This document shows, in pieces, positions 1 through 11,013 of a DNA stretch of 11,157 nucleotides (the stretch's first letter is position 1; each line of letters begins with the position of its first letter). Both the position numbers and the translations under genes were made by a program. The DNA comes from Gemmatimonadota bacterium (GTDB lineage: Bacteria; Gemmatimonadota; Gemmatimonadetes; Longimicrobiales; Gaopeijiaceae): contig WGEM01000621.1 in assembly GCA_015492755.1 (NCBI GenBank), positions 1 to 11,157 of the forward strand. Reading direction: 5' to 3'. The notes beneath the pieces are model-generated. The model saw only the letters and a program-made list of their open reading frames with translations, was not told the DNA's origin and did not search any database.

Positions 1-52
1 AGTGGTGCCTGCACCCTGCGCGGTGGCCACCGCGCAGGGTGCAGGCACCACT
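1..52. repeat. Perfect 52-bp palindrome at the window edge (26-bp arms, no loop)
   Basis: Bases 1-26 are the exact reverse complement of bases 27-52. The centre, GGTGGCCACC, is naturally palindromic and fits normal coding for the Val-Ala-Thr-Ala stretch typical of these Ig-like repeats (a similar GGTGGCCACCGCG occurs at about 331-343). The right arm reads on into good BIG2 sequence; the left arm is simply its mirror. The simplest reading is a fold-back artefact of library preparation or assembly at a contig end, which makes the first eight or so codons of the adjoining gene unreliable. A real inverted repeat cannot be excluded. Confidence 0.95.
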
Positions 53-1066
53 TCGGTCATCGTGGAGGCCACCCGGGCGGGCGTCACACGGGCCGACACC
101 GCGTCACTCTCGGTGGCGGTGGAGCCCGCGTCCGTCGTCATCACCCCGGACACCGCCACCCTGACAGCGGTGGGGGCGGTGGTGGACCTCTCGGCGCGCG
201 TGGCGGTGCGTGATGCCAACGGCAATGCCGTACCGGGTGCGACGGTGGCGTGGAGCAGCCTTGCGCCCACCGTGGCCACGGTGGATGGGGCGGGCACCGT
301 AACGGCGGTGGCACCGGGCGTGGCGCAGGTGGTGGCCACCGCGGGGACCGTGGCCGACACCGCCACCGTCACCGTCGACATCCAGGCGGCCCGTCTCGTG
401 ATCGTGCCGGCCGCAGACACGGTGGCGGTGGGCGGAAGCGTGCAGTTCGCCGCCCTGGCATTCGACGCCGGCGGTACACCACTCACGGCCTCACTCACCT
501 GGAGCACCACCGACGGGGCGGTGGCGACCGCGGACGCGTCGGGGCGCGCCACCGGTGTGGGCGCGGGCGTGGCAGGTGTGGTGGTGACGTCGGGAGCCGC
601 CGCGGACACGGCGTGGCTGGGCGTAGCGGGCGCGAACTCCATCGTGTCCACCGCCTTCCCCGGGGCGCAACCGAGGGACACGGTGGCGGCGGGTGCCCAG
701 GTGACGATTCCGGTGACCTTCGACATGAGCCGCGTGAGCGCCGACGGCGACCTGGGTTCGGTCCGGGTGGTGCTCACCTACGATGCCGGGCTCTTCGATC
801 TGGTGAGTGCCACCGAGGGTGTCACGGGAACCACCGTGATCAACACCGACGTCGCCGGGCAGGTAACCTTCGGGTTCATCAATACGAGCGCCCAGGGCTC
901 CGCGAAGCTCACGCTCTTCACCGTAGTGCTTCAGGCGAAGGCGGGCGCGGTGGCGGGAAGTGTGGGCGGGCTGGGCCTCACCTTCACCGAGACTCCGGCC
1001 AGGACCGACTTCACCCTGTACGCGACGCCGGTTGCGGTGGCGGGCGAAGTCGTGATCGGAAACTGA
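2..1066 (+). CDS. Partial secreted protein with BIG2 Ig-like repeats and a C-terminal cohesin-like domain
   Basis: The 5' end lies outside the window, so no signal peptide is visible and the apparent GTG at position 2 is not the true start; it sits in the edge palindrome. Counting from base 2, residues 1-40 are the end of one BIG2 (bacterial Ig-like) repeat. Residues about 41-126 and 128-208 are two full repeats with the typical V-x-W-S-S core and the pattern VATVDGAGTVTAVAPGVAQV. Residues about 213-354 look like a cohesin domain: an N-terminal proline/valine strand (VTIPVTFDMS), then VRVVLTYDAGLFDLVSA, then a glycine-rich strand and a closing GEVVIGN. It is probably a surface or exported stalk protein that displays a cohesin. 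It ends with TGA and the next gene begins 22 bases later, so the two are likely co-transcribed. Cohesin assignment is by pattern only; a related CBM or Ig fold is the alternative. Confidence 0.8.
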   Translation: MVPAPCAVATAQGAGTTSVIVEATRAGVTRADTASLSVAVEPASVVITPDTATLTAVGAVVDLSARVAVRDANGNAVPGATVAWSSLAPTVATVDGAGTVTAVAPGVAQVVATAGTVADTATVTVDIQAARLVIVPAADTVAVGGSVQFAALAFDAGGTPLTASLTWSTTDGAVATADASGRATGVGAGVAGVVVTSGAAADTAWLGVAGANSIVSTAFPGAQPRDTVAAGAQVTIPVTFDMSRVSADGDLGSVRVVLTYDAGLFDLVSATEGVTGTTVINTDVAGQVTFGFINTSAQGSAKLTLFTVVLQAKAGAVAGSVGGLGLTFTETPARTDFTLYATPVAVAGEVVIGN

Positions 1067-1074
1067 GATGCGTA

Positions 1075-1080
1075 GGGAGG
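1075..1080 (+). promoter_or_regulatory. Shine-Dalgarno GGGAGG that fixes the start of the lipoprotein gene
   Basis: GGGAGG lies 8 bases before the ATG at 1089. An earlier in-frame ATG at 1068 has no such site and lies upstream of this one, so the ATG at 1089 is preferred. Confidence 0.7.
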
Positions 1081-1088
1081 ATCGTCAG

Positions 1089-1694
1089 ATGCGCATAGAG
1101 GCGAGTGAGGGCCGCACAAGTGCCCGCGAGAGGCGGAGCGCGTACCGGGCCGCGCCCATCCGGCGGAAGCGGCGGATCCTTCGAGCGGCGCTGTGGCTGG
1201 CGCCCGTGATGGTACTCGCCTGCGACGACAGCCGCGTGGCGGGGCCGGGCGCGGCGGACGACGCCCTCCAGCGCCTTCCCCCGGGCATCCACCCGGTGCT
1301 GTTCGTGCCACCCGGCGCCGGTGCGGTCCACGAGATCCGCCTCCACCTCTACGGCGTGGAGACGGATGCGTCCGTGGCTTCGTATCAGGGTGAGATCACC
1401 TATGACGCCGAGGCGCTCGAGATCGTGGGAGCGACGTTCGACGAGGGCGTCATGGGCGCGTGGAACGTCACCCGACCCGGACATCTGCGGATTGCGGGGA
1501 TCTCGCTGGACGGAATCAGCGGCACGCCCGCCGTGACGCTGAAGGTCCGTTCCAGCCGGATCCCCGTGGCGGCGGACTTTCACGTGAAGCTCGAGGAGCT
1601 CCGGGGGAGCGGAGACTTCATCGACCTGACGGGGCGGGTGGTGGAGCGGGACCATCCGGTCCTCACCCGCACCGATCCGGGCGTGCGGCGCTGA
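1089..1694 (+). CDS. Lipoprotein with a cohesin-like domain
   Basis: The product has 201 residues. The first 34 are rich in Arg, then a hydrophobic stretch (LRAALWLAPVMVLAC) ends in the lipobox V-L-A-C at Cys45, so lipid anchoring after signal peptidase II cleavage is expected. The N-region is unusually long for a lipoprotein signal. Residues about 69-189 resemble a cohesin: VLFVPPGAGAVHEIRLHLYG, then SYQGEITYDAEALEIVGA, then a strand that closes in FIDLTGRVV. It is shorter than typical cohesins (about 140 residues). It sits between a gene ending in a cohesin-like domain and a dockerin-bearing protein, which suggests that it anchors the dockerin partner to a membrane. The family is assigned by pattern; no enzyme motif is visible. 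Start chosen by the Shine-Dalgarno site; an ATG at 1068 would add seven residues. Confidence 0.75.
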   Translation: MRIEASEGRTSARERRSAYRAAPIRRKRRILRAALWLAPVMVLACDDSRVAGPGAADDALQRLPPGIHPVLFVPPGAGAVHEIRLHLYGVETDASVASYQGEITYDAEALEIVGATFDEGVMGAWNVTRPGHLRIAGISLDGISGTPAVTLKVRSSRIPVAADFHVKLEELRGSGDFIDLTGRVVERDHPVLTRTDPGVRR

Positions 1695-1695
1695 G

Positions 1696-1748
1696 GTCCA
1701 CCGGTGTCGGGCGTGCGCATGCGGGCGGTGATCCGGGGCACGGTGGAC
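1696..1748 (+). repeat. Inverted repeat between the two cohesin/dockerin genes
   Basis: GTCCACCG at 1696-1703 is matched by CGGTGGAC at 1741-1748, with 37 bases between; allowing one bulged G extends the pairing by two bases. It fills most of the 75-base gap between genes and could form a hairpin in the polycistronic RNA. There is no T-run, so it is not a standard terminator. It may also be chance in GC-rich DNA. Confidence 0.35.
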
Positions 1749-1757
1749 GGCTGCTCC

Positions 1758-1763
1758 AGGAGG
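1758..1763 (+). promoter_or_regulatory. Shine-Dalgarno AGGAGG for the dockerin protein
   Basis: AGGAGG lies 6 bases before the ATG at 1770, which begins a textbook signal peptide. Upstream in-frame starts at 1704 (GTG) and 1719 (ATG) lack a comparable site and would place charged residues before the signal sequence. Confidence 0.8.
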
Positions 1764-1769
1764 ATTGCC

Positions 1770-4700
1770 ATGAGGATGCTGGTTGCGGCCCTCCTTCTTC
1801 TGGGTGTGTCCGCGGCGGCTCCGTCCGTTCCTCTCCCGGCGCCTGTGCCGGCTGGCGGCGTCGTGCGCGGAGACGTGGACGGAGACGGCACCATCGCCGC
1901 GTTGGACGCGCTGGCGACGCTCACGCACGTCGTCGGCCGCGCCATCCCCTCCGACTGGAGCGTGGATCCTCAGGGAGACGGCAACTGCGACGGCCAGATC
2001 ACCGCCTTCGACGCGCTTCTCATTCTCAGTTACGCCGTGGGGAAGGACGTATCCTCCTTCTGCGTGGGCGATCCCCTCGCCACCAGTCTCACGCTCACAC
2101 CGGACTCGTCGCTCATCAGGGTGTCCGACACGCTGCGCGTCGTGGCGGACGCGCGAGACGCCGGGGGCGGCTCCGTCACGGGCCTCCCGCTGGAGTGGAG
2201 TCTCTCGGATTCCGCCGTGGCGGAGGTGGATTCCACCGGTCTCGTGCGCGGGACCGCGCCCGGCACCACCTGGGTCCGGGCCCGCACCGGGAGTCTCGTG
2301 GATTCGGTGCGGGTGGACGTGGTGCTCTTCCTCGCCGGACGCCAGACGGTTCAGATTCAGCTTCCGGCGGGAGTCCCGTCCACCGGACTCGTGGTGCGTA
2401 CACCCAACGACTCCGTTCCTGCGGCGGACCTCCTGAACATTCCGGTGAATCTGGCCACCGACCTCATCAGCACCATCGGGGTGCTGGACGCGAACCAGAA
2501 CCCGATTCTGCTGGGGCCCGCCCTCTATCCGCCGGACGGCGATACCGTCAGCATCAGCACCCTGAGCACCGCGACATCTCTGGTTCTCATGAACCCCTTC
2601 GTGGCGGCGGTGCTGTACTTCGATCCGGCGGGGGACAAGAACTATGCGTCCACCATCGCAGCGCTGCCGGAGACGCAGACGCTGGCGAACCTCATCGCGC
2701 AGAAACTGCCGGCGAATCCCGGCATCCTTACCGCCATGGACGCGGAGGTGCAGACGGCCGTGCACAACGCGTCCATGGCCTTCCTGAACACGCTCGGGAG
2801 CCTACCGACGAAATCCGACGCGGTCCCCACGGGCGAGGGGCCGGCTAGGGTGGTGGCCTCCGGACCGGACAGCGCTCAGAGCGGGGTGATCATCACCCGG
2901 ACACCCTTCGATTCCGCAGGCACTCGGTATCTGCGCCTGGATGTGACGAACCAGCGCCGGCGCTATGTCTATCTGGTGGTGGAGGACTCCACCGGGCGGA
3001 AGTTCGGTACGCCGGAGAGCTACTTCATTCCGCCGGCCAACGACCTCATCTCATTCCAGCCGCTCAAGGACTCCAAGTCCCGGTCCGTGCTCGATCTTCG
3101 TGCCGTCTCCGACTCCGCGGCCGGGAGAAAGGTGAAGGTGAAGGTGTACGGCCCTGGCATCTCGGGCTTCCCGCCCACCGGTGAGGGCAGCCGCCTCGTG
3201 AGCCCCATCGTGGCCACGGCCATGACGCAGTTCATTGCTCCGGTGGTGAGCGAGCTCCTCGGTGCGCCCAGCGCCTGTGTGATCGCGCTTCAGAACAATA
3301 TGTTCGCCGCCACACTGGGTGATGTGGCGCTCACTGCGAGCGTCGAGCAGAAAGCAAAGAATGGCGAGTACGTGAGCGCCATCCTTGAAATCCTCGGATC
3401 CTTCCTCTCCAAGATCGTGGATGTGGACGTGCTCACAAACGCCCTGGCGGGGTGTGGAGCCAGCGCCGCACAGGCCGCAGTCATGGCGGGCAATGCCGCC
3501 TCGTATGCCGCGCCCGTGGCCGGCCAGGTCAGACTCGCGGTGAGCGCGTTCAACGTGTCCGTGGTGGCGGTCCCCACGCTGGCGGACATCGCCATGAGCG
3601 ACGCCCGGAGCACGTGGGACATCTGGAACTCGCTGAACGTGAGTCTTGAAACCTCTTCGATTGACGGTCTCACAGCGAGGTTCCGCACGGTATGCACGTC
3701 CGATACGGGAGATACCGTCTCCTGTGGGACATTGGCGTACGACTATGGGGATGGGACGACCGCCACGGTCACGGCGGACTCCGCAACCCACACGTATGCC
3801 CGGTCCGGAAAGTACACCGTGCGCGTCACCGCCACAGACGTCGATGCGGCTAGAGCCGACACCACACTGGACGTATGGGTGGCCACGCCTGTCCGGGGTG
3901 CGGTGGCCTTCATCGGATGCCCGCCCGAGGACAACAACTGCAACAACGGGACGTACCTGTTCTTCTACGACCTGCTGGCGGACACGGTGACTCAGATCTA
4001 CCAGTGGTCATCCAGCGATCCCACACAACCGGCACGGAGTATGAGCCTGTCGCACGACGGAGCGATGGTCGCGTGGATGGCGAGCGACTACAGCTACCAC
4101 ATGCTGTTCGTGCCGCAGCCGGACGCACCGACGAAGCTGAATCTTCCGAGGCTGGACGAGTGCGACGCGGTGGAGATGAATACCTGCGTCCGACAGCCCA
4201 TCACATTTGGATACGACCGGAATCTCTACGCGGTGGGGGGACGGTACCGCATTGAGGGTACGAACACCGTCCTGGGAGAACTGCTCCTCAGAATCAGTCC
4301 CAGTGCCGCCGCGCCCTACACCGAACTTGTCGATCTGGTGAAGGAGTCCTCCACACGTGGTGTTGCGCAATGCCTTCCCACGTGGCTGGAGATGGCTCCG
4401 TACTATCCGGACGGGACGTGGCTCACGATGCAGACCGCAACCTGGTTGCCGGCTCCGACCGATCCCGACGACCTCTGGTGGAGGAACGGCATCTGGGGTC
4501 CGTGCGAGCTCTCCACGTCCACGCGATCCGGCGCAAGTCGGTTCGACACAGGATGGCGGGGACAGCCGTATCAGAAGGTGTTCCGCACCAAGGGCGGGGG
4601 ATACGTGAGCTACCTTTCCGCCAACCCGCCCCCACTCTGGAATGCGGACGGCACGGTGGAACAGCAGGTGAGGAGCCTCAGCGACTACTACTTCGACATG

Positions 4701-4853
4701 GCATACAACTGGGATGAGGATGTCATCCTCATCGCGGAAGGTTTCTTCGGGATCACCGTGGTCAAGGCGACGGACCTCACCGATAAGCAACGCCGGCTCT
4801 CCGGATACCGGGTCAACGAGGTGTACACGTCGCCCTATCCGAGCGGGCGCTGA
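1770..4853 (+). CDS. Large secreted protein: N-terminal dockerin, BIG2, unknown region, PKD, propeller-like C-terminus
   Basis: The product has 1027 residues. Residues 1-17 form a signal peptide (MRMLVAALLLLGVSAAA). Residues about 33-98 are a type I dockerin with two complete calcium loops: D35-x-D37-x-D39-G with D46, and D70-x-N72-x-D74-G with D81. Each loop is followed by a helix (LDALATLTHVV, FDALLILSYAV). Residues about 104-185 are a BIG2 Ig-like repeat. Residues about 186-625 I do not recognise; they contain a long Ala-rich, probably helical part (about 478-600). Residues about 634-705 are a PKD domain with AYDYGDGTTATV and a Tyr-Thr-Val-Arg-Val-Thr strand. The rest (about 708-1027) has repeated beta-strand patterns such as SLSHDGAMVAWMAS and GYDRNLYAVGGRYRI that suggest a propeller. 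No catalytic residues are evident. A dockerin at the N-terminus is less common than at the C-terminus. It follows two cohesin-like genes, so it may dock onto their products. Confidence 0.85.
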   Translation: MRMLVAALLLLGVSAAAPSVPLPAPVPAGGVVRGDVDGDGTIAALDALATLTHVVGRAIPSDWSVDPQGDGNCDGQITAFDALLILSYAVGKDVSSFCVGDPLATSLTLTPDSSLIRVSDTLRVVADARDAGGGSVTGLPLEWSLSDSAVAEVDSTGLVRGTAPGTTWVRARTGSLVDSVRVDVVLFLAGRQTVQIQLPAGVPSTGLVVRTPNDSVPAADLLNIPVNLATDLISTIGVLDANQNPILLGPALYPPDGDTVSISTLSTATSLVLMNPFVAAVLYFDPAGDKNYASTIAALPETQTLANLIAQKLPANPGILTAMDAEVQTAVHNASMAFLNTLGSLPTKSDAVPTGEGPARVVASGPDSAQSGVIITRTPFDSAGTRYLRLDVTNQRRRYVYLVVEDSTGRKFGTPESYFIPPANDLISFQPLKDSKSRSVLDLRAVSDSAAGRKVKVKVYGPGISGFPPTGEGSRLVSPIVATAMTQFIAPVVSELLGAPSACVIALQNNMFAATLGDVALTASVEQKAKNGEYVSAILEILGSFLSKIVDVDVLTNALAGCGASAAQAAVMAGNAASYAAPVAGQVRLAVSAFNVSVVAVPTLADIAMSDARSTWDIWNSLNVSLETSSIDGLTARFRTVCTSDTGDTVSCGTLAYDYGDGTTATVTADSATHTYARSGKYTVRVTATDVDAARADTTLDVWVATPVRGAVAFIGCPPEDNNCNNGTYLFFYDLLADTVTQIYQWSSSDPTQPARSMSLSHDGAMVAWMASDYSYHMLFVPQPDAPTKLNLPRLDECDAVEMNTCVRQPITFGYDRNLYAVGGRYRIEGTNTVLGELLLRISPSAAAPYTELVDLVKESSTRGVAQCLPTWLEMAPYYPDGTWLTMQTATWLPAPTDPDDLWWRNGIWGPCELSTSTRSGASRFDTGWRGQPYQKVFRTKGGGYVSYLSANPPPLWNADGTVEQQVRSLSDYYFDMAYNWDEDVILIAEGFFGITVVKATDLTDKQRRLSGYRVNEVYTSPYPSGR

Positions 4854-4974
4854 CCCCCCACCGCCGATCCCCCGGCGCCACGGTGAGCGTCACCCGCTCA
4901 CCGTCACGGAGGACGACGATGGTCACTGTGCCCCCGGGCTTGGTCTCCCGTGGTGCCCAGGTGTACGCGTAGAT
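4854..4974 (-). pseudogene. Relic of the 3' end of an M28-PDZ peptidase gene
   Basis: This segment aligns without gaps to 8102-8222, the 3' end of the M28 peptidase gene, with 98 of 121 bases identical, including a 21-base exact match (4879-4899 with 8127-8147). Read on the minus strand it encodes 38 residues, of which 27 match the PDZ end of the peptidase (residues 560-597), with IVVLR and GERVTLTV shared. The stop codon is lost (TAG became TGG). Upstream of 4974 the likeness ends abruptly, so there is no start, catalytic domain or full PDZ. It begins directly after the TGA of the dockerin gene. It is either what is left of a decayed paralogue or a gene end displaced by insertion of the copper block. 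That it is homologous is seen directly; the history is inferred. Confidence 0.85.
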
Positions 4975-4993
4975 CCGCGGTTTCCGAAGATTT

Positions 4994-5026
4994 CTTCATC
5001 GAGGATTCACGGAATCTTCATCGAGC
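4994..5026 (+). promoter_or_regulatory. Putative operator upstream of copA: three TTCA half-sites at 11-bp spacing
   Basis: TTCA occurs at 4995, 5006 and 5017, exactly 11 bases apart, within the units CTTCATCGAGG, ATTCACGGAAT and CTTCATCGAGC. The outer units share an 11-base exact repeat (TCTTCATCGAG at 4993-5003 and 5015-5025). The same arrangement lies before the YHS gene. Direct repeats of 11 bp are the usual target of OmpR/PhoB-type winged-helix response regulators; the unit resembles the GTTCACC-N4 repeat known for Streptomyces PhoP. It ends about 90 bases before the copA start. No regulator gene is present in the window. Confidence 0.55.
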
Positions 5027-5117
5027 CCTGCCCTTATTCAGAACCATTCTCGTTTCGGGCATGGGCATCGAGCTGCAGCCCCGTGCCCTGAAGTTGTGCC
5101 GTTATGGGATGGTATCC

Positions 5118-6953
5118 ATGCGAAAAACCGGTAGCCCCATCACGCGACGCTCGTTCCTGCACTCTTCCGCGATGGCGGGGGTCTTTGCGGGACTCCGCCC
5201 GATTCTTCCCTCGTACTCCGCGTTCGAGCCCGATGTTCGTGGCATGGAGCCCCAGGACGTGAGTCCCGGGAGGAAGGTCTACGACCTCACCATCGAGGAG
5301 GTTCGCCTCGACATCGAGGGGCGGTCGACCACCGCCACGGCGATCAACGGATCGGTCCCGGGCCCTCTGCTTCGATTCCGGGAGGGCGACGACGTGACGC
5401 TACGTGTCACGAACAAGCTCCATGAGGACACCTCGATCCACTGGCATGGCATCCTTCTCCCCTTCGATCAGGACGGCGTGCCGGGTGTGAGCTTCCCCGG
5501 CATCAAGCCGGGAGAGACCTTCACGTATCGCTATACGATCCGGCAGACCGGTACGTACTGGTACCACAGCCACAGCGGGCTGCAGGAACAGACCGGCGTG
5601 TACGGGCCCATCATCATCGACCCGGCGGGAGAGGACCCGCACCCGTACGATCGCGAGTACGTGGTCGTTCTGGGAGACTGGACGTTCGAAGACCCGAAGA
5701 CTGTTCTCTCGAAGCTTCGCAAGTTCCCGGGCTACTACAACTACCAGCGTCGTACCCTGCTGGACCTCTTCCGAAACGCCGACGGGAAAGGTTTCGGCTC
5801 CGACCTGAAGGATCGCCTGGCCTGGGCTCGCATGAGGATGGACGCGACGGACATCGCCGACATTACGGGGGCGACGTACACCTACCTCATCAACGGGATG
5901 GGGCCGGAGGATAACTGGACCGGCGTCTTCCGACCCGGTGAGCGTGTGCGGCTGCGTTTCATCAACGCAGGGGCGGGAACCTTCTTCGATGTCCGGATTC
6001 CCGGACTCGAGATGACGGTGGTGCAGGCAGACGGACAGGACGTGCAGCCGGTGACCGTCGACGAGTTCCGGATCGCCATTGCAGAGACGTACGACGTGAT
6101 CGTGCAGCCCAAGGAAGACCGGGCGTACACCATCTTCGCCGAATCGATGGACCGGAGCGGCTTTGCCCGGGGGACGCTTGCGCCCCGGGAGGGGATGACT
6201 GCCGAGATCCCGCCTCGTCGACGTCGCCCGCTCCGCACCATGGCGGACATGGGGATGGACCACGGGTCCATGGGCATGGATGGCATGGCGCATGGCGAGA
6301 TGGGGCATGGCGAGATGGCCCACGGCGAGATGGCCCACGGCGAGATGGGCGGAGCCATGGCGATGGGTGCTGCCCAGCAACTGGCGCCGGCCGGAGCGAT
6401 CCCTGAGGCCAAACCCCACGGGCCCGACACCCATGGGCCGGGGAATGCGGCCGTCCCCATGCAGACCCGGAGTCGCCTCCATGAGGCCGGTGTCGGCCTC
6501 GGGAACGACGGGCGCAGGGTTCTCCTTTACACCGATCTGCGGGCCCTACCCCCGGGGCATGGATACCAGGAGCCGGCACGTGAGATCGAGCTGCACCTGA
6601 CGGGGAACATGGAGCGGTACATGTGGTCGTTCGACGGGAAGGAGTATTCCCGAGCTCCGGACCCGGTGGAGCTGCGCCACGGTGAGTGGGTCAGGCTCGT
6701 CCTCGTCAACGACACCATGATGGAGCACCCCATCCACCTTCACGGAATGTGGATGGTGCTCGAGAACGGAACCGGACCGTATCTCCCGAGGAAGCATACG
6801 GTGAACGTGAAACCGGCTGAGCGACTCTCGGTTCTGGTGCATGCGGACGCGCCGGGGCCGTGGGCGTTCCACTGCCACATTCTCTATCACATGGACATGG
6901 GTATGTTCCGGGTCGTCCGGGTATCGGGCGCCACGGCCGAGGAGGTGGAGTGA
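5118..6953 (+). CDS. copA: Copper-resistance multicopper oxidase, CopA/PcoA type, Tat-exported
   Basis: The product has 611 residues, close to the roughly 600 of PcoA/CopA. It begins with a twin-arginine signal (ITRRSFLHSSAMAGVFAGL, residues 8-26), so it should be exported folded to the periplasm, where the family oxidises Cu(I) and binds copper. All four copper motifs are present: H108-W-H110-G; H150-S-H152; H537-P-I-H540-L-H542; and H585-C586-H587 with H591 and M596, giving the type 1 site and the trinuclear cluster. Residues about 375-421 are a Met/His-rich insert with four tandem M-x-H-G-E units, a likely copper-binding loop. The ATG at 5118 is chosen because it gives a compact Tat signal; a weak GGGAT lies upstream, and an ATG at 5109 is possible. 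An in-frame start at 4950 is rejected because it lies in the M28 relic. Its TGA overlaps the ATG of copB. Confidence 0.93.
   Translation: MRKTGSPITRRSFLHSSAMAGVFAGLRPILPSYSAFEPDVRGMEPQDVSPGRKVYDLTIEEVRLDIEGRSTTATAINGSVPGPLLRFREGDDVTLRVTNKLHEDTSIHWHGILLPFDQDGVPGVSFPGIKPGETFTYRYTIRQTGTYWYHSHSGLQEQTGVYGPIIIDPAGEDPHPYDREYVVVLGDWTFEDPKTVLSKLRKFPGYYNYQRRTLLDLFRNADGKGFGSDLKDRLAWARMRMDATDIADITGATYTYLINGMGPEDNWTGVFRPGERVRLRFINAGAGTFFDVRIPGLEMTVVQADGQDVQPVTVDEFRIAIAETYDVIVQPKEDRAYTIFAESMDRSGFARGTLAPREGMTAEIPPRRRRPLRTMADMGMDHGSMGMDGMAHGEMGHGEMAHGEMAHGEMGGAMAMGAAQQLAPAGAIPEAKPHGPDTHGPGNAAVPMQTRSRLHEAGVGLGNDGRRVLLYTDLRALPPGHGYQEPAREIELHLTGNMERYMWSFDGKEYSRAPDPVELRHGEWVRLVLVNDTMMEHPIHLHGMWMVLENGTGPYLPRKHTVNVKPAERLSVLVHADAPGPWAFHCHILYHMDMGMFRVVRVSGATAEEVE
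6285..6344 (+). repeat. Four tandem 15-bp units encoding M-A/G-H-G-E in copA
   Basis: Four consecutive 15-base units (6285, 6300, 6315, 6330) encode MAHGE, MGHGE, MAHGE and MAHGE. The third and fourth units are identical at DNA level. Being in-frame, copy number could change by slippage without breaking the gene, altering the number of Met and His ligands. Confidence 0.9.
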
Positions 6954-7732
6954 TGCGGCCCAACGACGCTCCCCGCACAGCACGTGCTCGTCGGTTCGTG
7001 CCGGTCTTCTTCGCGGTTCTCGCCGGCGCGCTCTTCGCCGGGACGGCTGCACCTGTATCCGCACAGGCTCTCCTGCGACTCGAAAACGAGAACGTGTACG
7101 GGTACACCCTGTTCGACGTTCTGGAGATGGCGCCGGACCTTGACGGTCGCCCCATGCGATGGGACGTGATCGGATTCGTCGGGAAGCAGTACGATCGGAT
7201 CTGGTTCAAGAGCGAGGGAGATCTCTCCACCGTATCTCGGACGGGAGATTTCGACCTGCAGGCCCTCTACAGCCGGGTCTTTGCGCCATACTGGGAGGTC
7301 CAGGTCGGGTTCCGGGCGGAAGCGGAGTACGACGCGGAGGACCTCCGGACCCGGGGGCACCTGGTCCTAGCCCTGGAGGGACTCGCTCCGTACTGGTTCG
7401 AACTTGAGCCGTCCGTGTTCGTGAGCGAAAACGGCGATGTCTCCGCGGAGTTCAGCGCGAGCTACGATCTCTTCGTCACCCAGCGGCTACTTGTCCAGCC
7501 CCGGTTCGACCTCCTCGCTGCGTTGCAAGACGTACCCGAGTGGGGTGTCGCGTCGGGGATCTACCGGGTCGGGATGAGTCTGAGGCTCCGTTACGAACTC
7601 CGGCGTGAGTTCGCGCCCTACGTCGGGATCGACTGGACCCGAAACACCGGTGGGGGCGCAGACCTCGCCAGAGCCGCCGGGGAGGACGTGAGCCGGGGAG
7701 TCCTGGTGGCGGGAGTGCGGATCTGGCGGTGA
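6953..7732 (+). CDS. copB: Copper resistance outer-membrane protein CopB
   Basis: The product has 259 residues. A signal peptide (RRFVPVFFAVLAGALFAG) ends near VSA-QA after Ala37. The mature part carries the hallmarks of the CopB family (outer-membrane copper-binding beta-barrel): YDRIWFKSEGD at 80-90, GLAPYWFELEPSVFVSENG at 143-161, then LLVQPRFDLLAALQ and the closing REFAPYVGIDWTRNTGGGAD with a final VAGVRIWR. The Met/His-rich N-terminal segment of the Pseudomonas CopB is missing; the Met-rich region here is in CopA instead. The ATG overlaps the last base of the copA stop codon (TGATG), with GGAGG at 6941-6945, so the two genes are translationally coupled. The pairing matches the classic copAB and pcoAB operons of periplasmic and outer-membrane copper resistance. 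Confidence 0.93.
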   Translation: MRPNDAPRTARARRFVPVFFAVLAGALFAGTAAPVSAQALLRLENENVYGYTLFDVLEMAPDLDGRPMRWDVIGFVGKQYDRIWFKSEGDLSTVSRTGDFDLQALYSRVFAPYWEVQVGFRAEAEYDAEDLRTRGHLVLALEGLAPYWFELEPSVFVSENGDVSAEFSASYDLFVTQRLLVQPRFDLLAALQDVPEWGVASGIYRVGMSLRLRYELRREFAPYVGIDWTRNTGGGADLARAAGEDVSRGVLVAGVRIWR

Positions 7733-7786
7733 GAGACGCCTGACGAGGGGCGGTGAGCCGGCTACGCTGCGTCCTCGTGAGGGAAA

Positions 7787-7819
7787 GTTCACCTCCGATT
7801 CAGCGAACGTTCATGCCCG
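7787..7819 (+). promoter_or_regulatory. Putative operator upstream of the YHS gene: three TTCA half-sites at 11-bp spacing
   Basis: TTCA lies at 7788, 7799 and 7810, again exactly 11 bases apart, in the units GTTCACCTCCG, ATTCAGCGAAC and GTTCATGCCCG. Aligned with the copA site, 19 of 27 bases agree, giving TTCAYC-N3-GATTCA-N2-GAA-N2-TTCAT. It ends about 55 bases before the YHS start, in the 139-base gap after copB. This suggests that the YHS gene has its own promoter under the same response regulator as copA. Confidence 0.55.
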
Positions 7820-7831
7820 CTGCGCCACGTT

Positions 7832-7852
7832 TGGACATCGACGGGATGTCCA
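7832..7852 (+). promoter_or_regulatory. 8-bp dyad just upstream of the YHS gene
   Basis: TGGACATC (7832-7839) is the exact reverse complement of GATGTCCA (7845-7852), with 5 bases between. It lies between the TTCA array and the Shine-Dalgarno site, so it could be a second operator for a dimeric regulator or a hairpin in the 5' leader. No T-run follows, so it is unlikely to be the terminator of copB. Confidence 0.4.
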
Positions 7853-7871
7853 TGGACGTAAGGAGGGCGCA

Positions 7872-8090
7872 ATGCTCGTGCACGATGAAGTATGTGGCAT
7901 GACGATCAGGCGAGAAGAGGCCGCCGCCCGTCATCGGTTTCAGGGTACGACCTACTACTTCTGCTCCAAGCGGTGTAAGACTCACTTCATCGCTCACCCC
8001 GACTGGTACGTCGAGGTGCGGCCGGCGGGTGATCCAGGCGCGGCCGGAGACGAACCTGCGCCTCGGCGCGCGCCGGGCAGCGGGTCCTGA
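7872..8090 (+). CDS. Small YHS-domain metal-binding protein
   Basis: The product has 72 residues. Residues 5-46 form a YHS domain: D-E-V-C8-G-M near the start, then YYF-C31-S-K-R-C35-K, and a closing HPDWYV. The family (named for Tyr-His-Ser; here TYYFCS replaces the usual centre) is found in copper-transporting P-type ATPases and small soluble proteins linked to heavy metals, with the cysteines as probable ligands. There is no signal peptide, so it is probably cytosolic. The tail (51-72) is Gly/Pro/Ala-rich and disordered. AAGGAGGG lies 5 bases before the ATG. It follows copB on the same strand and shares an operator-like array with copA, so a role as copper chaperone or buffer is likely but inferred. 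Its stop lies 15 bases from the convergent 3' end of the peptidase gene, with no clear terminator between them. Confidence 0.88.
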   Translation: MLVHDEVCGMTIRREEAAARHRFQGTTYYFCSKRCKTHFIAHPDWYVEVRPAGDPGAAGDEPAPRRAPGSGS

Positions 8091-8105
8091 TGGAGCCCGT
8101 ACCCC

Positions 8106-9899
8106 CTACCGCCGCTCCCCCAGCGTCACGGTGAGCGTCACCCGCTCCCCCTCGCGGAGGACCACGATCTTCACCGTGTCGCCGGGCCGCTTGTCCCGTA
8201 GCGCGTAGGTGTAGGCGTAGATGTCGGCGATCTCCTTCCCGTCGAACTCCACCACGTTATCGCCGGCGCGCAGGCCGCCCTTCTCGGCGGGGCTCCCCTC
8301 CCGAACGCCCGTGAGGCGGAGCCCGAAATCGCGGGGCGTCATGTCGGGGATGGTGCCCAGGTAGGCGCGCCCGTAGCCGCTCCGGGACTCCGACGACGCC
8401 GACGGTGCGGTGGGCGGGGTGGGTCGCTCGGTGGCCACGGGCGTGGGCGTCACGGGTGCCGTCGCGACGCCCGCCAGCTCACCGACCACCTCCGACGCCA
8501 GCGCCACCACCCGCTGCAGGCCCTCGACGTTGATCTTCGGCCAGTCGTCGCTGGGCCGGTGGTAGTCCTCGAGGGTGTTGGTGAAGAAGTGCAGCACGGG
8601 GAGCCCGGCGCCGTGGAAGGAGGAGTGATCCGAAGGTCCGTACCCGTCGGGGGATTTCGCGATGGTCAGCGGGCGTTCCAGCGCCGCGTTGGCCCGGTCC
8701 ACCACGGCGTCCCACTCCGGGGCGGTGCCGAAGCCGAAGACGGTGAGGTTGTCGTCCACCATCCGCCCCACCATGTCCAGGTTGAGCATGGCCACCGCCC
8801 CTCTGAGGTCCACGCTGGGCTCCTGCACGAAGCGGGCGGAGCCCCAGAGCCCCTTCTCCTCGCCGGTGAACGCGATGAAGAGCACCGGACGGGCGGGACG
8901 GGGTCCCGAGGCCAGCGTGCGGGCGATCTCCAGGAGTGCGGCGGTGCCGCTGGCGTTGTCGTCGGCGCCGTTGTGCACCTCCCGGGCGTCGGGGGCCAGC
9001 GAGCCCTCACCGCCCCATCCCAGGTGGTCGTAGTGGGCCCCCACGATGACGAACTCGCCCGTGTGCTCCGGCTCGGCGCCCGGCAGGAGCGCCACCACGT
9101 TTCGGGCCTCGCTCATCATGGGGCGCACGTCGGTGCGAAGGCGTGCGGGCGCCCCCGCCTCCGCCGCGGCGCGCATCCGCACCGCCGCGTCGCCACGCAC
9201 TACCGCCACGGGCACCGTCAGCGCCGCCCGCGTTTCGGTGTCGACGGCGGGGAGTGACGCGCCCTCGGGAAGGAGCAGCACCACGGCAGCGGCGCCCCGG
9301 CCGGCGGCCACGGTGGCCTTGAAGTGCGGATCGCCCCGGATGGATCCCCCGTGCGGCGCGTCGGGATCACCCGACTCCACCACCAGAATCCGCCCGGTGA
9401 GGTCGAGGTGAGCGAAGCGGTCCTCCGGCGAGCCCGGACGGCTGAGCCCGCTCCCGCCGTAGACGAGCGAGCCCTCCACCTCCGCCGAGGCGGAGAAGCC
9501 CAGCGGTGTCCACGCGTCTCCCAGTGCCAGGTGCATTCCGTCCACCTGAAGTTCGTTGTCCGGGCCCAGCTCGGTCCCGCTGCGCACGGGGAAGGTGTGG
9601 AAGTAGGTGCCCTCCGCCCCGGCGGGCTCCAGCCCCAGCTCGCGGAAGCGCGCGGCGAGGTACTCCGCGGCGCATCGCTCGCCCGGCGTGCCCACCTCGC
9701 GCCCCTCCAGGGCGTCGTCCGCGAGATACCGGATGTGACGGAGCGTCTCAGGTGTGACATTATCCAGACCGGCGATGACGGGGCAGCCTTCCTGGGCCGG
9801 CCACGAATCGGCGTCGGAACGGGCCGCCATGGTAAAGACGGCGGCGGCGAGGACGAATGTGACGCCCCCGAGGGCGCGTAGACGCGAGGAACGGTTCAT
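8106..9899 (-). CDS. Secreted M28 metallopeptidase with PA and PDZ domains
   Basis: The product has 597 residues. Residues 1-30 look like an uncleaved or cleaved signal sequence ([19 protein letters not shown]). Residues about 140-255 are a protease-associated (PA) domain inserted before the core. The M28 zinc core follows: H289-Y-D-H in AHYDHLG, the bridging Asp in GADDNASG (311-318), E347-E348 in TGEEKG, D375 in NLDMVGR, and H425 in SDHSSFH. Both zinc sites and the catalytic Glu are thus present. A Pro/Thr-rich linker (about 476-505) leads to a PDZ domain (about 510-597; [20 protein letters not shown]). The family are aminopeptidases, probably periplasmic or secreted here. The ATG at 9899 is preferred because the signal follows directly; there is no clear Shine-Dalgarno site. 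It diverges from the TolB-like gene with overlapping start codons. By eye it is richer in GC than the copper genes beside it. Confidence 0.92.
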
Positions 9900-9900
9900 G
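9897..9900. other. Overlapping divergent start codons (CATG)
   Basis: The plus-strand ATG at 9898-9900 and the minus-strand ATG at 9899-9897 share two bases. The plus gene has GAGGA at 9886-9890, 7 bases before its start; the minus gene has no visible Shine-Dalgarno site. The promoter and ribosome binding site of each gene must therefore lie within the first codons of the other, unless one start is misplaced (an ATG at 9910 would serve the plus gene). Confidence 0.7.
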
Positions 9901-11013
9901 ACGGGTTCGATGAGGGATGCTGCGCCGAACCGGCGCTCTGTGGTCGTGCTGCTTCTGGCCTCGGCCGTGTGGGCCGCCTGTGGTGGTGAAACACCTCGGG
10001 GCGAGGAGAGTGCCGGCGGCGATGCGAGTTCGTCGTCGGCGCTGACCATGCCCGGCGAGACGCACCTGCGCAACGTGCGCCAGCTCACCTTCGGGGGTGA
10101 GAACGCCGAGGCCTACTGGGCCTTCGACGGCTCCAGGCTCATCTACCAGGCGCGCAAGCCGGGGATGGAGTGCGACCAGATCTTCATCATGGACCCGGAG
10201 ACGGGTGAGTCGCACATGGTGAGCACCGGGAAGGGCCGCACCACCTGCTCGTACTTCTATCCCTCGGGCGAGCAGATCCTCTACTCCTCCACGCACCACC
10301 ACGATGCGTCGTGCCCGCCGAACCCGGACTTCTCCATGGGCTACGTGTGGCCCATTTATCACACCTACGACATCTTCGTGGCCAACGTGGACGGCTCGAA
10401 CCTCCGAGCGCTCACCGAGACCGACGGCTACGACGCCGAGGCCACCTTCTCCCCCACGGGCGATCGCATCGTCTTCACCAGCGTGCGCGACGGCGACCTG
10501 GAGCTCTACTCCATGGCGCCCGACGGCTCCGACGTGCGCCGGCTCACCAACCGCATCGGCTACGACGGCGGGGCGTTCTACTCGCCCGACGGTTCGAAGA
10601 TCGTCTGGCGGGCGCACTACCCGGAGCCGGGACAGGAGACGTAGGACTACCTGCGGCTGCTGGAACAGGGGCTCCTGCGATGGGGTGAGCTGGAGATCTA
10701 CGTGATGGACGCCGACGGCTCGAACCAGCGGCAGGTGACCCACCTGGGCGGGGCCAACTTCGCGCCCTACTGGCACCCCGACGGGGAGCGGATCCTCTTC
10801 AGCTCGAACCATGAAGACCCCGACGGGCGCGAGTTCGAGATCTACATGATCAACATCGACGGCACCGGCCTTACCCGCATCACCCACTCGGAAGGCTTCG
10901 ACGGCTTCCCGGTGTTCAGCCCGGACGGGCGCTACCTGGTCTTCGGATCCAACCGGAACAACGGCGGTACCAGCGACACCAACATCTTCATCGCCGAGTG
11001 GGTGGAGGAGTAG
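9898..11013 (+). pseudogene. TolB-like beta-propeller lipoprotein, interrupted by an in-frame TAG
   Basis: Without the stop the product would have 371 residues. The TAG is codon 249 (10642-10644), and the same frame continues to TAG at 11011-11013 with no shift. Residues 1-28 are a probable lipoprotein signal ([17 protein letters not shown], Cys28; the lipobox W-A-A-C is not canonical), followed by a Gly/Ser-rich linker. The rest consists of WD40-like (PD40) repeats as in Tol[71 protein letters not shown] and VFSPDGRYLVFGSN. The sequence beyond the stop (DYLRLLEQGLLR, then LEIYVMDADGS) continues the repeat pattern, so the break is recent, a sequencing error or read through. An internal ATG at 10702 could start only a 103-residue fragment. 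Such proteins are periplasmic and often stand next to peptidases; function here is unknown. Confidence 0.85.

Follow-up and report, generated by a model that had tools for sequence, protein, structure and literature searches.

A conserved cohesin-dockerin gene trio in Gemmatimonadota, probably a non-cellulosomal anchor for a large exported protein

The window analyzed here is a stretch of 11,157 bp that begins at base 1 of its contig (C621) and comprises that entire contig, from a Gemmatimonadota metagenome-assembled genome (MAG) of 637 contigs that is 82% complete and 6% contaminated. Three consecutive open reading frames (ORFs) lie on its plus strand, at 2-1066, 1068-1694, and 1704-4853, as the first-pass annotation had claimed. 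The contig opens with a 26-bp perfect inverted repeat (1..52), in which bases 1-26 and 27-52 are 100% complementary without a spacer. This repeat is probably an assembly artefact, and the first residues of protein 1, which it encodes, are probably artefactual as well. No tRNA was found in the window by ARAGORN, and no Rfam family was matched at its gathering score.

Genes for a CopA-type multicopper oxidase, CopB, a YHS protein, and PD40 propellers lie 3' of the trio, together with an M28-PDZ peptidase gene on the opposite strand. The first three of these, next to the trio, make up a copper-related cluster (4950-8090). Direct repeats of 122 bp, 81% identical to each other, are found on both sides of this copA-copB-YHS block (4853-4974 and 8101-8222), and the one just after the dockerin gene looks like a decayed copy of the end of the M28-PDZ peptidase gene, on its 3' side. 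Further along, a PD40/TolB-like propeller is split into two ORFs (9754-10644 and 10702-11013), which may be one broken gene.

The first gene (2..1066, plus strand) encodes an Ig-stalked cohesin protein whose frame runs off the edge of the contig; window and contig being one and the same, the protein is truncated at its N-terminus. The stalk matches the Pfam family Big_2 in two stretches (E = 2.3e-14), the better of which lies at 131..376 (residues 44-125). It is followed by a candidate cohesin domain of 142 residues at 638..1063 (residues 213-354), identified by alignment, PDB profile matches, and hhalign, with 37-39% identity to four relatives. The protein in the same gene position at locus L051, where the three-gene order is that of the window, possesses a start codon and a lipobox pattern. 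Since the N-terminus of protein 1 itself is cut off, its surface anchoring is proposed from such lipobox-bearing relatives.

The second gene (1068..1694, plus strand; start at 1068 or 1089) encodes a small cohesin lipoprotein (LIP). Its lipobox Cys codon is found at 1221..1223, where the translation reads VLAC followed by DD, and this Cys is conserved in at least 90% of 66 LIP alignment rows. A crude signal-peptide rule misses the window LIP, whose start is long and basic. The cohesin-like domain, taken from the range aligned by hhalign, spans 1296..1637 (residues 70-183 counted from ATG 1089). Proteins 1 and 2 thus yielded one cohesin-like domain apiece, gene 1 being truncated.

The cohesin fold is a nine-stranded jelly-roll. 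The first-pass annotation had read both residues 213-354 of the first product and the second product as cohesins, which direct Pfam searches did not support and profile comparisons did. The window's own residues 213-354 gave no PF00963 match at E ≤ 1, and the window LIP stayed below the Pfam cut-off (E = 0.044; 14.4 versus 24.1 bits); the LIP profile matched nothing in the PDB. The stalk domain is tied to cohesins through its counterpart in the L051 protein, which is 38% identical to it and matches PF00963 at E = 1.6e-11 (45 bits against a cut-off of 24.1), and through a profile of five stalk domain sequences that matches solved C. cellulolyticum cohesins in the PDB (E = 0.0016-0.0018). For the LIP, the evidence lies in the hhalign comparison of its profile with the stalk profile (97.1%) and in the small cohesin of L099, the one relative of ten scanned to exceed the PF00963 cut-off (31.1 bits). 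Among seven small cohesins searched with Pfam, L099 was above the cut-off, three were at 0.0002-0.003, and three had no match, and no PF00963 match was obtained for three small cohesins of family f3 in single-protein scans. Four of 13 stalk proteins in relatives exceeded the cut-off, one of three in f3 (L051; no match was seen in L052 and L054) and three of ten in other families (L099, L101, and L118).

Owing to the worry that the iterated cohesin profile had drifted, six cohesin groups were compared by hhalign. Eleven pairings gave 90.5-99.5% and six pairings of cohesin groups with a Big_2 Ig-domain control gave at most 0.9%, in a comparison that is not fully independent, as the groups had been collected with the same iterated profile. 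Judged from sequence, the stalk and small cohesins are homologous to each other and, via relatives, to PF00963; the absence of any cohesin relationship, which the first-pass annotation had allowed for, was not borne out by these profile comparisons.

The third gene fills a frame of 1049 residues, and a better start at ATG 1770 yields an exported dockerin protein of 1027 residues (1770..4853, plus strand), as indicated by ORF, Pfam, and homologues. The protein has a signal-peptide pattern and two near full-length homologues with 43% identity. Its type I dockerin (1866..2066) contains two calcium loops, DVDGDGTIAALD and DGNCDGQITAFD, both of which are complete 12-mers with Asp or Asn at the coordinating positions, and matches Dockerin_1 (PF00404) above the curated cut-off (E = 2.3e-5; 24.9 versus 22.9 bits), which confirms the complete two-loop dockerin proposed for this product. 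Two or more complete calcium loops are present in 46 of 52 dockerins, the window's included, and a profile of 25 dockerins matches solved cellulosomal dockerins in the PDB at 4e-13. Positions 10-11 are Ala-Leu in loop 1 and Ala-Phe in loop 2, making the window dockerin nearly symmetric. Dockerins of mesophilic clostridia carry Ala/Leu(Ile) at the loop positions according to the available text of PMC5748583, and in cellulosomes the dual binding mode is believed to stem from dockerin symmetry (PMC4728124, available text). The remainder of the protein includes a Big_2 Ig-like domain (2082..2309; residues 127-202 of the 1049-residue frame), a PKD domain (3663..3860; residues 654-719 of the same frame), and a C-terminal region with no named Pfam domain.

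The window dockerin also has one Cys in loop 2 and another near the dockerin end (1986-2063). "NC" plus at least two Cys was seen in 19 of 52 dockerins, and it is possible that the paired Cys form a disulfide.

To describe the cargo of related dockerin proteins, 48 of 75 distinct dockerin ORFs, picked to fit a size limit, were scanned with Pfam, and PF00404 was found in 40 of the 48 at E ≤ 0.001. Sortilin-Vps10 propellers were the commonest cargo (19 of 48), followed by Ig-like domains, beta-helices, M6 and S8 peptidases, RCC1 propellers, and a phosphoesterase. In all, 21 Pfam families were matched at E ≤ 1e-8, every one of them listed, and 40 at E ≤ 0.001, of which 25 were listed. No glycoside hydrolase or carbohydrate-binding module was among the 21 families in the 48 dockerin proteins, and none was matched in the window, in keeping with the earlier claim that these are lacking here. 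A dockerin protein at L064, outside the set of 48, matched PF18565 (Glyco_hydro2_C5) above the cut-off and otherwise has Ig-like domains; the stalk protein of L131 matched the same family below the cut-off. PF18565 is, by its name, an accessory C-terminal domain. Dockerin placement varies, being near the N-terminus in some proteins and C-terminal in others. With at most 15 candidates scored per genome, a single dockerin was found in 53 of 73 dockerin genomes, and the incomplete MAG of the window has one dockerin match at E ≤ 1e-6.

Distribution of the gene set was assessed with the LIP, searched first as a single sequence against 146 genomes of the order and then, in profile form, against 395 of the phylum. 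The LIP was matched in 12 of the 146, its own included, and in 42 of the 395, and a dockerin profile was matched in 73 of the 395. A dockerin was present in 40 of the 42 LIP genomes versus 33 of the 353 others (p = 3.9e-32). The small-cohesin homologues that bear an organism name (11 of 100) are assigned to Longimicrobium, Longimicrobiaceae, or "uncultured Gemmatimonadetes bacterium", all of the phylum Gemmatimonadota.

All LIP search matches together with the window gave 52 LIP-picked loci. Counting as neighbours those dockerins that share the ORF or lie on the same strand no more than 1.5 kb away, a dockerin adjoins or is fused to the small cohesin in 45 of the 52, with the cohesin upstream in 39 and downstream in 6; the other seven have no dockerin partner. 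A dockerin and a small or fused cohesin are accompanied by a stalk cohesin in 29 of the 52. The stalk and LIP labels follow from simple length rules, and a few of them (such as L059 and L136) are doubtful, since frames were taken as running between stop codons. Starting from dockerins instead, in 21 genomes without a LIP match at E ≤ 1e-6, the iterated profile found a cohesin neighbour at 20 of 23 loci, and the partner was absent in three. Two of the partnerless loci, L066 and L104, run up to the end of their contig. By these neighbour counts, all of them inflated by near-copies (L102/L103, L131/L132) among loci that are not independent, the adjacency of the trio is far beyond chance, and the prediction that the genes stay together in relatives held. 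Co-occurrence and gene order demonstrate a functional link, not binding.

The dockerin loci were sampled from 21 of the 27 LIP-negative dockerin genomes outside f11 and from four of the six f11 genomes. The latter belong to another class, and the iterated profile found no cohesin beside the dockerin in the four f11 loci. Fifteen dockerin loci were left out of the main counts (the dockerin-picked L062 and L063, and L163-L175, second dockerins of LIP-positive genomes). A cohesin was present on the stretch in eight of these and absent in seven, and some dockerins therefore lie away from any cohesin gene. Genome G357 has nine dockerin places, four of which are consecutive on one contig (L172) with no cohesin found on the stretch by profile.

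Cohesin and dockerin occur together in five families (f1, f3, f4, f5, and f9) while the cargo varies. Some f3 loci, among them L053, L060, L061, and L064, have LIP and dockerin, and no stalk gene was found nearby. In L060, two phage Tail Collar domain genes are located 3' of the dockerin gene (15821-16856), and similar-sized genes, known by size and place only, follow the dockerin gene in L053, L061, and L064.

The set is rare in the window's own family, f1, where the small cohesin was found only in genomes G000 and G057 and the dockerin only in G000 and G108. MAG contamination was considered because of this near absence. The M28-PDZ peptidase on the same contig has f1 sequences as all of its 19 best matches (60-65% identity), and the window small cohesin is nested within a 21-row clade made up of f3 and metagenome sequences (support 100/99). 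Nucleotide-word correlation over 4.5 kb was 0.79-0.86 between the window and nine of its own contigs, 0.82-0.92 among the own contigs, and up to 0.87 between the window and f3 loci (L060). The G+C content of the window, 67.2%, is slightly under that of 11 own contigs (67.7-73.4%). The set may have been transferred from an f3-like source or lost within f1, or its presence here may stem from a binning or assembly error.

Lipobox patterns were present in 62 of 76 LIP ORFs, 31 of 43 stalk ORFs, 8 of 75 dockerin ORFs, and 2 of 24 ORFs in which cohesin and dockerin are fused, by a crude pattern of which a few matches far inside an ORF are due to chance. The equally crude signal-peptide rule matched 54 of 74 dockerin ORFs and 19 of 23 fused ORFs. 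The cohesins therefore tend to be lipoproteins and the dockerins exported free proteins. At L055, the small cohesin and the dockerin form one natural ORF, with the stalk gene still upstream.

Given the domain relationship, gene order, conservation, and lipobox and signal-peptide patterns described above, the trio is probably a dedicated non-cellulosomal cohesin-dockerin anchor for a large exported protein at the cell envelope. Protein 2 would be an envelope lipoprotein that presents a cohesin, as would protein 1, by homology, with its cohesin at the tip of an Ig-domain stalk. Protein 3 would be exported by means of its signal peptide, and its dockerin, having bound two calcium ions, would plug into the cohesin of protein 1 or 2; the simplest mechanism has the lipoprotein with its cohesin as the anchor. 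Cohesin-dockerin binding is among the strongest protein plugs known. The body of protein 3, consisting of the Ig and PKD domains and the C-terminal region, would thereby be held on the cell surface non-covalently. We infer the docking, its calcium dependence, the surface rather than periplasmic site, and the choice of cohesin partner, and the domain kinds suggest that the cargo probably serves adhesion or the binding of extracellular material.

The anchor reading could be extended, compatibly, to the assembly of chains or fibres, in which dockerin proteins are linked in series from the lipoprotein, each exported cohesin+dockerin protein plugging into the previous link and receiving the next; the window would then be the shortest, one-link form. 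We regard this as possible but on the doubtful side. ORFs with both modules were detected by the iterated profile in 13 of the 52 LIP-picked loci, and L097 and L099 each have one protein above the Pfam cut-offs for both Cohesin (25.4 and 25.8 bits) and Dockerin_1. In genomes G315 (L097/L170) and G157 (L099/L169), the order is stalk, LIP, cohesin+dockerin, cohesin+dockerin, dockerin, cohesin+dockerin, and the signal-peptide and lipobox counts of the fused ORFs (19 of 23 and 2 of 24) fit exported links. However, the window dockerin protein does not itself carry a cohesin, PF00963 was matched at E ≤ 0.001 in only 2 of the 13 fused ORFs within the 48 proteins scanned, the two modules of a fused protein could fold onto each other, and a single dockerin is the rule among dockerin genomes (53 of 73, with no more than 15 candidates scored in each). 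The fuller proposal of a surface display shared by several families, in which the LIP cohesin starts a self-assembling chain, operon order equals link order, and the window is a single-link case, is tentative; if true, the chain system would possibly be a natural chain-building kit. It is unlikely, although conceivable, that the LIP displays nothing and acts as a periplasmic holder, keeping the dockerin protein soluble until the stalk cohesin or a secretion machine takes it over. The 29 of 52 loci that also have a stalk cohesin are consistent with such a role, as are the 14 of 76 LIP ORFs without a lipobox pattern and the Asp directly after the lipobox Cys of the window LIP. In E. coli, an Asp in this position keeps lipoproteins at the inner membrane. 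Yet it follows the Cys in just 3 of the 62 lipobox-bearing LIP ORFs, and in f3 loci without a nearby stalk gene, such as those named above, the LIP seems self-sufficient.

Two further readings question the binding or the non-cellulosomal nature of the set. As cohesin-dockerin binding is here deduced from sequence, the modules may be plain Ig-like and EF-hand-like domains that do not bind each other, their genes kept together as one adhesin operon; this is rather improbable, because the partners stay together in five families despite changing cargo and the dockerin is close to the N-terminus in some proteins and C-terminal in others. An ordinary cellulosome, or its remnant, would use a pair of modules identical in kind, and the Ala-Leu and Ala-Phe at loop positions 10-11 resemble the Ala/Leu(Ile) described for mesophilic clostridia in the available text of PMC5748583. 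Nevertheless, this reading is hardly credible: glycoside hydrolase and carbohydrate-binding families are missing from the 21 families at E ≤ 1e-8 in the 48 dockerin proteins, the PF18565 match at L064 concerns what is by name an accessory domain in an otherwise Ig-like protein, the prevalence of single dockerins in the genomes as scored does not fit, and no scaffoldin with repeated cohesins for many dockerins was found in the window, whose gene 1 is truncated.

To our knowledge, the role of cohesin-dockerin binding outside cellulosomes is poorly understood. Cohesin and dockerin modules were reportedly found by Peer et al. in 2009 in organisms thought not to degrade cellulose, work that PMC9012536 and PMC6461901 cite; what differs here is recurrence, with dockerin cargo encoded together with a stalk cohesin and a small lipoprotein cohesin in several families within a single phylum. 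The C. cellulolyticum type I pair (PDB 1g1k, 2vn5, 2vn6) is matched by the stalk and dockerin profiles and shares Ala-hydrophobic loop residues with the window, but it works with cellulosomal enzymes and a scaffoldin, which were not found here. That cohesins and dockerins exist outside cellulosomes is already known (PMC9012536, available text). The "Planctosome" of freshwater Planctomycetes is likewise a proposed non-cellulosomal envelope anchor with cohesin, and its adaptor with dockerin and cohesin resembles the proteins of L097 and L099; it differs in its lamin-tail-domain anchor and in having peptidases as dockerin cargo, and a small cohesin lipoprotein is not mentioned in the available part of that report (PMC6461901). 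ANME archaea and their partner sulfate reducers have adjacent cohesin and dockerin domains; they differ from the present set in the scaffoldin-like proteins of ANME, which carry as many as five cohesins, and in an S-layer context (PMC9012536 and PMC10553843, as far as their available text goes). In the cellulosome-like complex of Ca. Stygibacter, dockerins are carried, as here, by exported enzymes including S8 peptidases in a non-Firmicutes phylum, whereas its large scaffoldin has repeated cohesins and carbohydrate-binding domains (PMC8542988, available text). Among titles and abstract openings, no description of dockerin or cohesin in Gemmatimonadota or Longimicrobium was found. We rate the trio as a variant of known non-cellulosomal cohesin-dockerin systems, and as itself new.

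The anchor reading would also point to the way in which propeller, Ig, and beta-helix proteins of large size stay on the surface of these cells. As a compact set conserved in relatives of Longimicrobium (Gemmatimonadota), the trio offers a small number of testable cohesin-dockerin pairs and a simple way to ask what purpose a non-cellulosomal dockerin has.
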